From: Phytoactinopolyspora alkaliphila
GTDB lineage: Bacteria; Actinomycetota; Actinomycetes; Jiangellales; Jiangellaceae
Length of the DNA stretch: 64,000 bases
Direction: 5' to 3'
Assembly (NCBI RefSeq): GCF_010550695.1
Contig: NZ_JAAGOB010000002.1
Coordinates: forward strand, 1 to 64,000
Part shown: piece after piece, positions 31,513-34,448 of the stretch
Layout: each line of letters starts with the position of its first letter
Position numbering within the stretch: position 1 is the first letter of the stretch
Translations under genes and position numbers: made by a program
The notes under the pieces: generated by a model
The model's database searches: none
Told to the model about the DNA's origin: nothing
Seen by the model: only the letters and a program-made list of their open reading frames with translations

Positions 31513-33198
31513 ATGACCACACCACGCACGGTCCGGTCCCCTCGCGGCACGTCCCTGACGGCTCGTAGCTGGCAGACCGAGGCGCCGCTGCGGATGCTCA
31601 TGAACAACCTCGATCCGGAGGTGGCCGAGCGCCCGGACGACCTCGTCGTCTACGGGGGCACCGGAAAGGCGGCGCGGGACTGGGCCAGTTACGACGCCAT
31701 CGTCCGCACCCTGACCGACCTGGGCGACGACGAGACACTGCTCGTGCAGTCCGGCAAGCCTGTCGGAGTGCTGCGCACGCACGAATGGGCGCCGCGCGTG
31801 CTGATCGCTAACTCGAACCTTGTGGGTGACTGGGCGACCTGGCCGGAGTTCCGGAGGCTAGAGAAGCTGGGACTCACCATGTACGGGCAGATGACCGCGG
31901 GCTCCTGGATCTACATCGGCACCCAGGGAATCCTTCAGGGGACCTACGAGACGTTCGCGGCTGTCGCGGCCAAGCGGTTCGGCGGCACACTGGCCGGCAC
32001 TCTGACCGTCACCGGCGGCTGCGGTGGGATGGGCGGCGCGCAGCCGCTTGCCGTCACCTTGAACGACGGCGCCTGCCTGGTCGTGGAGGTGGACGAAGCC
32101 CGGCTTGACCGGCGGGTCCGCCAGCGGTACCTCGACACCTACAGCACCGACATCGACGACGCCGTGCGCCAGGTCGAGGCGGCGAAGGCCGAGCGGCGGG
32201 CGCTCTCCGTGGGGCTGGTCGGCAACTGCGCCACGGTGCTGCCCGAGCTGCTCCGGCGTGGGGTTGGCGTCGACATCGTCACCGACCAGACATCAGCGCA
32301 CGATCCGCTGAGTTACCTGCCCGAGGGCATCGCCGTCGAGGACTGGCACGACTACGCCGAGCGAAAGCCGGCCGAGTTCACCGAGCGCGCTCGCGCCTCG
32401 ATGGCCGCGCACGTCCAAGCCATGGTCGGGTTCCTCGATGCCGGTGCGGAAGTCTTCGACTACGGGAACTCGATCCGCGACGAGGCCCGCGCCGGTGGCT
32501 TCGCCCGCGCCTTCGACTTCCCCGGATTCGTTCCGGCCTACATCCGGCCGCTCTTCTGCGAGGGCAAGGGCCCGTTCCGGTGGGCGGCGCTGTCCGGCGA
32601 CCCCCGCGACATCGCCGCCACCGACGAGGCCGTGCTCGAGCTGTTCGACGACGATCACCTGCACCGCTGGATCCGCGCCGCCCAGGACAAGGTGGCCTTC
32701 CAGGGCCTGCCCGCCCGGATCTGCTGGCTGGGCTACGGCGAGCGGCACCAAGCTGGCGTGAAGTTCAACGAGATGGTGGCGGACGGGCGGATCAGCGCGC
32801 CGATCGTCATCGGCCGGGACCACCTCGATGCCGGGTCCGTGGCCTCTCCCTACCGGGAAACCGAGGCGATGGCCGACGGCTCGGATGCCATCGCCGACTG
32901 GCCCCTGCTCAACGCGCTGGTGAACACGGCCTCGGGTGCGTCCTGGGTATCGATCCACCACGGCGGTGGCGTGGGCATGGGCAGGTCGATCCATGCCGGC
33001 CAAGTCAGCGTCGCCGACGGGACGGAGCTGGCGGCCGCGAAGCTGGAACGGGTACTGACCAACGATCCCGGCATGGGCGTTCTGCGCCATGTGGACGCGG
33101 GTTATCCCCGGGCTCGGGAGATCGCCGCCTCCCGTGGCCCGCACGCTCCCATGATCATCGACGATCAGCCGGGTCGTAGCACGGGCGACCGTCGATGA
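31513..33198 (+). CDS. hutU: Urocanate hydratase
   Basis: Adds water to urocanate to form 4-imidazolone-5-propionate, using bound NAD+ as an electrophile. The 561-residue protein has the family length. Recognisable segments are [20 protein letters not shown] (near 45), [20 protein letters not shown] (near 120), the NAD-binding [20 protein letters not shown] (near 172), [26 protein letters not shown] and [11 protein letters not shown]; the catalytic Cys region appears in [22 protein letters not shown] 31513 has GAAGGAG upstream and it follows hutH by 17 bp. Its 3' end forms the left arm of a 20-bp inverted repeat. Confidence 0.97.
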
Positions 33199-33209
33199 TC
33201 ATGGGAGCG
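33144..33209 (+). repeat. 20-bp perfect inverted repeat across the hutU/amidase junction
   Basis: Left arm 33144-33163 in the hutU 3' end and right arm 33190-33209 are exact complements, with a 26-nt loop. The right arm contains the hutU stop (33196-33198), the overlapping amidase ATG (33195) and the alternative ATG (33201). In RNA this would be a very stable hairpin masking the downstream start; no separate ribosome site is seen, so coupling to ribosomes finishing hutU would be needed to open it. Confidence 0.8.
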
Positions 33210-34448
33210 GATGGGACGTTCGAGCGGATGTGGTCCGAGCTGGAGCCGGTCGGGCGCCACCCCCGCAGCGGAGGGTACCGGCGGTTCGCCTGGGCCGATG
33301 CCGATCTGGAGTGCCGAACGTGGTTCGTGGCCAATGCCGCAGAGCGGGACCTGGACGTCGAGGCCGACGGCAACGGCAACCTCTGGGCCTGGTGGGGCGA
33401 CCCCGAAGCCGGGAACGCGCTGGTGACCGGTTCGCATCTGGACTCGGTGCCCGACGGCGGCGCGTTCGACGGCCCCCTCGGCGTCGTGTCCGCGTTCGCC
33501 GCCCTGGACGTCCTGCGTGCGCGCGGCTTCACACCGTCGCGGCCGGTCGCCATCGTGGCGTTCTCCGACGAGGAGGGCGCTCGGTTCGGCGTGGCGTGCG
33601 GCGGCTCCCGCCTGATGACCGGAGAACTCGACGCGGACCGGGGCCGGGCGCTGACCGACGCCGAGGGCGTGACCATGGCCGAGGCGATGGCCGCCGCGGG
33701 CCACGACCCGGCCGGCGTGGGCACCGACCCCGAGCGGCTGTCCCGTCTCGGCCAGTTCGTCGAACTCCACGTCGAGCAGGGCCGGGTACCCCTGACCACC
33801 CCTGACGGAGCCAGGGTATGGGGGCTCGACGGGTACGGCGCGCCGATCGGGCTCGCCTCGATGATCTGGCCGCACGGCCGCTGGCGGTTCGACTTCGCCG
33901 GACGAGCCGACCATGCCGGAACCACTGCCCTGGGCGACCGCGACGACCCGATGATCCGCTACGCCGATGCCGTCCTGGCGGCCCGCGCGGCGGCTGAACG
34001 GCACACCGCGGTGGCGACCTTCGGGAAGGTGAGCGTCCATCCCAATGGCGTCAACGCAATCCCCTCACTCGTGCAAGCGTGGCTGGACGCCCGGGGCAGT
34101 GACGAGGAACGCGTGCGCGCGACGGTGGCCGACGTCTCCGGCCATACCGGAAGCCGAACCAGCCCGCAGCCTGCCGTCGAGGAGTCCTGGACGCCCGCTG
34201 TCCGGTTCGACGATGCCCTGCGCGACGTGGTCGCCACCGCCCTGAAACCCAGGTTCGGCGCTGTCCCGGTCCTGCCGACGGGGGCCGGGCACGACGCCGG
34301 GATCCTAGCCGCGGCCGGCGTCCCGGCGGCGATGCTCTTCGTGCGCAATCCGACCGGCGTCTCCCACTCGCCCGCGGAGTCGGCCGACCGCGCCGACTGC
34401 CTCAGCGGTGTCGAAGCCTTGGCCGATGTCCTGGAGGCGCTGGGATGA
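33195..34448 (+). CDS. M20-family amidase/carbamoylase of the hut operon (allantoate amidohydrolase-like)
   Basis: A 417-residue binuclear-zinc amidohydrolase. The zinc ligands appear in [20 protein letters not shown] (His/Asp near residue 80), [18 protein letters not shown] (Glu pair near 120), [11 protein letters not shown] (His near 190) and the C-terminal VSHSPAES. A lid domain with [19 protein letters not shown] lies between. Family members cut allantoate, N-carbamoyl-amino acids or ureidoglycolate. Its place between hutU and hutF suggests it removes the formyl group of N-formylglutamate, as no HutG is present; this is inference. The start overlaps the hutU stop (ATGA) inside a large hairpin. 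ATG 33201 is an alternative. Confidence 0.88.

Follow-up and report, generated by a model that had tools for sequence, protein, structure and literature searches.

Does the perfect inverted repeat that buries the start codon of an amidase gene in a Phytoactinopolyspora alkaliphila hut cluster serve as a switch for that gene, or does it belong to something larger? The window, the whole 64,000-nucleotide stretch of DNA that was analyzed, carries in succession hutH, hutU, an allantoate-amidohydrolase-like amidase gene, hutF, and hutI (NCBIfam assignments). The hutU gene, encoding urocanate hydratase (31513..33198, plus strand; TIGR01228, E 3.2e-270), overlaps the amidase gene (33195..34448, plus strand; NF006770, E 2.4e-176), and the repeat encodes the last residues of HutU and holds the amidase start in its right arm.

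The repeat at the hutU–amidase junction

As the first-pass annotation of this DNA had reported, the segments at 33144–33163 and 33190–33209 are exact reverse complements at 20 of 20 positions. Read on the plus strand, the left arm lies within the hutU C-terminus and encodes APMIID, and the right arm contains the hutU stop codon (TGA, 33196–33198), the overlapping ATGA (33195–33198), and the next in-frame ATG, the second (33201–33203). With a 26-nt middle, these perfect 20-bp arms make up a strandless palindromic element at 33144..33209. Its left terminal TGATCA (33152..33157) is common to the family described below, and the TGA of its right terminal TGATCA (33196..33201) is the hutU stop codon itself. 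Extended without gaps, the repeat has 28-nt arms (33144–33171 and 33182–33209) that are 89% paired.

The region is also predicted to fold in the mRNA, as had been suggested. The predicted energy of 33141–33212 was –49.2 kcal/mol, compared to –24.1 ± 3.05 for 200 shuffled sequences, none of which was as low (z –8.2). In this prediction, a very stable hairpin encloses the amidase start, and a ribosome ending hutU would have to open its right arm; local translational coupling of hutU and the amidase by the hairpin is plausible. Liang and colleagues reportedly described, in 2015, effects of REPs on translation near stop codons. A search of Rfam returned three hits, to microRNA families of animals; they scored far under the gathering thresholds, and we took them as chance.

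A dispersed palindrome family at gene 3′ ends

The hut repeat belongs to a REP-like palindromic family that is dispersed over the genome. The element is usually 54 bp long, runs from CATGATCA to TGATCATG, and is usually set in CCC...GGG, giving the consensus CCC-CATGATCATYGACGATC...GATCGTCRATGATCATG-GGG with a variable middle. Searching the 5.5-Mb genome with the 20-nt left arm and allowing up to three mismatches yielded 32 matches (control, 0), among them five plus/minus pairs exactly 46 bp apart, which is the spacing in the window, and a DNA search with the hut junction yielded 79 matching pieces. Both arms were present in 34 of 41 loci taken from the arm and DNA search lists, the seven without two arms (L143, L160, L162, L164, L165, L166, and L168) being dropped. 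Thirty of the 34 two-armed copies were exactly 54 bp; four copies of 55–58 bp were excluded from the 54-bp set used for placement. Exact-ended copies, defined as TGATCAT, 22–50 nt, and ATGATCA, numbered 51 in the window's genome and 1–214 per genome in 22 genomes of the family (control, 0), with some of the copies listed for the poorest genomes being unpaired and chance-like. Unbiased samples contained 8 strong copies (at least 38 bits) in 800 kb of the window's genome, excluding the window's own, and 11 in 400 kb of genome G014. Chance does not account for the hut repeat, as the palindrome recurs genome-wide and a reversed-pattern control gave 0 hits.

A covariance model, R1, whose sequences include the hut copy, matched 33145–33208 on both strands (70.4 and 71.5 bits). 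At E 0.1, with up to 150 candidates scored per genome and both strands counted, R1 had matches in 21 of 22 Jiangellaceae genomes; this GTDB family and its order comprise the same 22 genomes. At E 1e-6 and with stricter filters, 26 of 296 genomes of the class matched, 21 in the family and 5 of 274 outside it. Subfamilies varied by species, with TGATCATCGGCACTT in G011, TGATCATGAACACTT and TGATCATTGGCTTTTGAC in G004, and, outside the family, TGATCATGCACG in G168, G256, and G109. At L255–L273, loci from other actinobacterial families that include these last three genomes, we also saw CCCGTGATCATGCACG... palindromes, some with extra single arms. The G014 sample held a separate palindrome family, CGATCAGGTGAC...GTCACCTGATCG, which was intergenic and mostly 100–600 bp off gene ends (L235:18750, L236:16781, L238:2896, L243:3572, L249:7016, L252:13639, and L253:10775).

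Genes around the copies were called by a simple codon-usage gene finder written for this analysis, not by a standard program. None of the 34 copies in this genome lay inside a gene, and by a looser palindrome rule 1 of 12 palindromes in the own-genome sample did. The placement analysis covered 68 copies 54 bp long, of which this genome supplied 34, G014 12, and other family members 22. Of the 68, 35 lay between codirectional genes, 27 between convergent genes, and 5 between divergent genes, with 1 unassigned; the gene-finder threshold shifted the classing of the 34 own copies slightly (21/10/3 versus 20/11/3). Background junctions with gaps of at least 40 bp in the own-genome sample numbered 250, 69, and 102 in the same three classes, and against this background the 67 assigned copies showed a deficit of divergent sites (p 5e-4) and an excess of convergent sites (p 3e-6). 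Among 89 neighboring gene 3′ ends, 43 fell inside the element, 38 at 0–30 nt from it, and 8 further away. For 26 of the 89, all of them among the 43 inside, the TGA of the outer TGATCA was the exact stop codon. TGATCA gives a stop codon whichever strand is read, and the element can therefore close reading frames that enter it from left or right. In a different frame, it contributes a recurrent tail: HutU ends with 15 element-encoded residues, and the C-termini of two further proteins are MIIDDGLPDRVHDRQ and MIIGDPAHQDVGNRQ. Three proteins share a similar tail encoded by the element, MII[DG]D...[DN]R[RQ], namely HutU (33144–33198) and the products of the genes upstream at L154 and L167.

A gene family between similar palindromes

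RAYT-type Y1 transposases (PF01797) gave no match at E 0.001 in the 22 family genomes, two of which are merely 75–81% complete, and matched in 5 of 14 control genomes. We found 21 pairs of palindromes less than 2.5 kb apart in the DNA examined. Nine of these pairs enclosed members of one gene family, and the remaining 12 enclosed other genes or none. The enclosed family comprises AbiEi-wHTH/DUF559-like genes at L130:394-1395 and L154:1655-2677 (both in the window's own genome), L170, L179, L181, L185, L244, and L268, with a ninth member at L184; these nine close homologues are eight complete genes and one partial gene, and the complete proteins are 315–345 amino acids long. An N-terminal AbiEi_4 domain (PF13338, E to 1.2e-9) was above the cut-off in four of six proteins, below it in L268, and not hit in L130, and at E 10 seven of eight members matched. 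There was weak similarity to two solved structures, 6y8q ("abortive phage infection protein," E 0.0017) and 9hlo (AbiGI, E 0.0015). The C-terminus was weakly DUF559-like (PF04480 in six of eight proteins, best E 0.0057, all below cut-off). In protein alignment A2, D, ELDG, H, and D-R-DN were invariant, a pattern that may be the catalytic motif of a DUF559, PD-(D/E)XK, Vsr-like fold.

Palindromes lay on both sides of all nine close homologues in the DNA examined, although eight of these nine loci had been sampled through a palindrome hit and only L244 and L154 (the latter again in L222) came from unbiased samples. In each of the eight complete units, one palindrome lay 28–168 bp before the start codon, the other lay at the stop codon, and our gene finder predicted a single gene between them. 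The two palindromes of a unit were 0.82–0.98 identical in eight of nine cases and 0.70 identical in L154. The mean identity of random pairs was 0.71 in this genome, with a 95th percentile of 0.82, and 0.70 in G014, with a 95th percentile of 0.90; palindromes of different units averaged 0.64, with a highest value of 0.88. Two units of G014 had identities of 0.90 and 0.82 and arm types unlike each other; as random G014 pairs reach 0.90 at the 95th percentile, these two are not exceptional by identity. Among 133 distinct genes adjoining palindromes, the flanked family was the largest recurring one, with seven members, and the next had three (an orthologous site).

A distant homologue, L351 (32% identity), had 17 kb of palindrome-free sequence to its left, its right flank being cut off; one of two distant homologues in phage records had only an upstream palindrome, and the other had none. 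The upstream palindrome, at L370:2266-2331 (phage record MT837139.1), is 65 bp long with 17-bp arms. No homologue was found in plasmids at E 1e-5, and none of 53 candidate homologues in viral contigs was confirmed. We also considered one locus, the gene of which is presumably fah, as a solo palindrome (L175) that could be compared with full units (L170 and L181), but L175 offers no clean empty site because other sequence intervenes.

The palindromes and their flanked gene resemble several known systems, none of them fully. GTAG REPs, as described in the relevant sections of PMC3733652, lie near gene 3′ ends, have termini that often supply stop codons, and flank RAYT genes. The present family is likewise made up of many short palindromes near the 3′ ends of convergent and codirectional genes, with stop-supplying termini, and likewise has a dedicated gene flanked by repeats (nine of nine homologues, eight of the nine loci pre-selected), here for another type of enzyme. 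By contrast with GTAG REPs, most of the 34 aligned copies carry the foot CCC-RTGATCA and no GTAG there; unlike a REPtron, the element is usually a single long hairpin of 54 bp, the gene between the repeats is AbiEi/DUF559-like, and no Y1 (HUH) transposase match was found in the 22 genomes. Given these differences in tag and enzyme, the element is not a REPtron, although it works like one; by analogy, the matched palindromes around an AbiEi/DUF559-like gene resemble a REPtron built on an unrelated enzyme. CGTC REPs share the palindromic form and 3′-end placement, and the same sections of PMC3733652 name no dedicated transposase for that class. Here, however, the end tag is TGATCA, and CGTC occurs solely inside the arms of some subfamilies, the arms of TGATCATGAACACT and TGATCATCGGCACT being without it. 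The flanked protein is like the AbiE type IV toxin–antitoxin system in its N-terminal AbiEi_4 domain and weak similarity to 6y8q and AbiGI (9hlo), and unlike it in its DUF559-like domain and in the eight complete units, where no second (toxin) gene was predicted between the palindromes. As with MITEs and IS elements, there are non-autonomous copies together with a coding unit bounded by related repeats, but here a full hairpin stands at each end in place of one half of a terminal inverted repeat, and reading 54 orthologous junctions by eye revealed no target duplication. A literature search, mainly of titles and the beginnings of abstracts and covering few subscription journals, turned up nothing that we recognized on these palindromes or on a DUF559/palindrome unit.

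A candidate route of spread and its alternatives

We think it somewhat probable that the palindromes are a REP-like, non-autonomous element at gene 3′ ends, plausibly spread by the flanked AbiEi-like protein. The bolder form of this proposal, which we put forward tentatively and would rate a little short of probable, is a new kind of mobile palindrome, in which an AbiEi-wHTH/DUF559-like nuclease, its gene lying between two cognate palindromes, takes the place of an HUH tyrosine transposase in spreading REP-like repeats, each lineage of the protein has a corresponding arm sequence, and the bidirectional stop TGATCA directs insertion to stop codons. The starting points are the dispersed family, with subfamilies that differ by species, and, in a small and mostly pre-selected set, a gene for an AbiEi-like DNA-binding protein with a weak DUF559-like nuclease domain between two similar palindromes. 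The flanked protein would then recognize its cognate palindrome and help to establish it at new sites by copying or conversion, the part that RAYT is believed to play for REPs; palindrome binding by this protein, and a start of copying or conversion at gene ends by its nuclease-like domain, are probable. With its outer TGATCA offering a stop on either strand, an element arriving where a reading frame ends could provide the stop codon. The hut copy would then simply happen to bury the amidase start, making translation of the amidase depend on that of hutU, with the start exposed mainly to ribosomes terminating after HutU. We infer mobility of the palindrome and nuclease action of the protein from sequence comparisons.

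How the sites behave between species bears on this proposal. For 14 copies of this genome, we read the orthologous gene ends in G001–G005, finding 54 junctions (16 of 70 without an ortholog were set aside), and applied a fixed rule. A TGATCA palindrome was present at 17 of the 54 junctions and absent from 37. By the same rule, palindromes were found at 1.4% of gene ends in G000, 5.6% in G014, 4.6% in G001, and 6.4% in G004, and the share at the orthologous junctions significantly exceeded the 5.5% obtained by pooling G001 and G004 (p 2.5e-9). In the leuC–leuD gap, as named in the window's genome, five of six genomes had a palindrome, with arms of TTGACG, TGAACACT, or TCAACG. Different species thus share sites, yet the sequence at a site tends to be that of the species, a pattern resembling concerted evolution or renewed insertion at favored places. 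Against a mobile element, shared positions fit old, maintained sites equally well, and by eye the 54 junctions showed no clean insertion boundary.

An unlikely alternative is that the palindromes are RNA hairpins under selection at 3′ ends, acting as bidirectional terminators or mRNA stabilizers, with the AbiEi/DUF559 gene incidental. The strong 3′-end and convergent bias and the positions common to several species fit this idea. So does a wider survey, in which perfect-arm palindromes of at least 12 bp were found at 15 of 101 actinobacterial hutU 3′ ends and at 1 of 101 coding controls; the 15, among them the window's own copy, have many unrelated sequences, and some are chance-like. The hutU 3′ end may be favored by several palindrome families. 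Unrelated long palindromes were seen at hutU 3′ ends of other actinobacteria at L041, L048, L054, L073, L074, and L085. Several observations argue against RNA hairpins. First, no U-tract terminator was called at hut between 32700 and 33700, in a scan of this one copy that covered loops of 3–8. Second, 21 of 45 neighboring gene 5′ ends were inside the element or within 30 nt of it, and one copy lies between leuC and leuD. Third, the first-pass annotation had proposed testing whether pairing is kept by compensatory changes, and paired positions do covary across family copies (81 double-changed cells, compared to 37.4 ± 5.3 after shuffling, with 0 of 500 as high, and 17–34 in slid controls), although covariation alone is not proof of selection because the copies are related to one another. 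On the transcript strand, however, G-U mismatches were not in excess over A-C mismatches (45:39 for codirectional sites, p 0.59; 30:25 for convergent sites), a comparison sensitive to strong bias only, and thus nothing here points to selection on an mRNA hairpin. Finally, RNA hairpins leave the similar palindrome pairs around one gene family unexplained.

We regard it as improbable that the AbiEi/DUF559 protein, rather than driving mobility, is a regulator or nucleoid protein for which the palindromes serve as binding sites. Inverted repeats are indeed bound by the Streptococcus agalactiae AbiEi antitoxin (PMC7319586), and all eight complete genes have a palindrome 28–168 bp before the start. 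The copies, however, lie at gene ends rather than promoters (5 of 68 divergent), and each unit has its second copy at a stop codon.

A translational switch or fixed-ratio device selected specifically at hut, the main suggestion of the first-pass annotation, now seems very improbable. Its appeal lies in the start codon buried in a –49 kcal/mol hairpin and in the G003 junction, which also folds (–39.7 kcal/mol, z –5.3). We reject a hut-specific origin because the repeat belongs to a dispersed family and is absent in G001 and G004, two of the four same-genus relatives, which keep the hutU–amidase order, an outcome that the first-pass annotation had named as refuting its idea; the G001 junction does not fold (z +2.4). 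The RNA-strand signature is also absent. These comparisons drew on 14 family relatives with hutU and the amidase in the fetched stretch, 13 of which were tested by a fixed rule that allowed one mismatch in TGATCA and required 11 of the 14 outer pairs; the exception, G011, has an extra stretch of ~1.1 kb separating the two genes. Among the 13, only G003 has an element at the junction; its palindrome belongs to another subfamily, starts at a different offset, is read in a different frame, and has the ATGA in its loop. Visual inspection shows an imperfect copy in G002 (10 of 14 outer pairs, below the fixed rule) and, in G005, a decayed copy that the rule does not call; the palindrome is also absent in G009, G013, and G017–G021. 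The four same-genus species thus have an other-subfamily palindrome in one case, an imperfect one in another, and none in two. The junction of G007 (L009), a genome without an R1 match, bears an unrelated palindrome, GACTTGTCAGACC...GGTCTGACAAGTC.

The last alternative, a perfect repeat arising at hut alone by local inverted duplication or template switch, is suggested by arms that match over 20 bp and had also been raised earlier, but we reject it as the origin, with hardly any probability left to it, because both arms are family sequence matched by the genome-wide consensus; such events may keep the arms matched.

Returning to a REP-like element spread by its flanked protein, the known classes set the scale of what would follow. 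In PMC3733652, RAYT is the single class of enzyme to which GTAG REPs are tied, and no mobilizer is known for the CGTC class. If true, our proposal would suggest that the REP-like way of life arose more than once, here with an unrelated antitoxin-like nuclease gene, and orphan palindromes would gain a testable partner. Single hairpins at gene junctions could not safely be read as dedicated switches. Many genes of these bacteria would also take their stop codon and C-terminal tail from the element.
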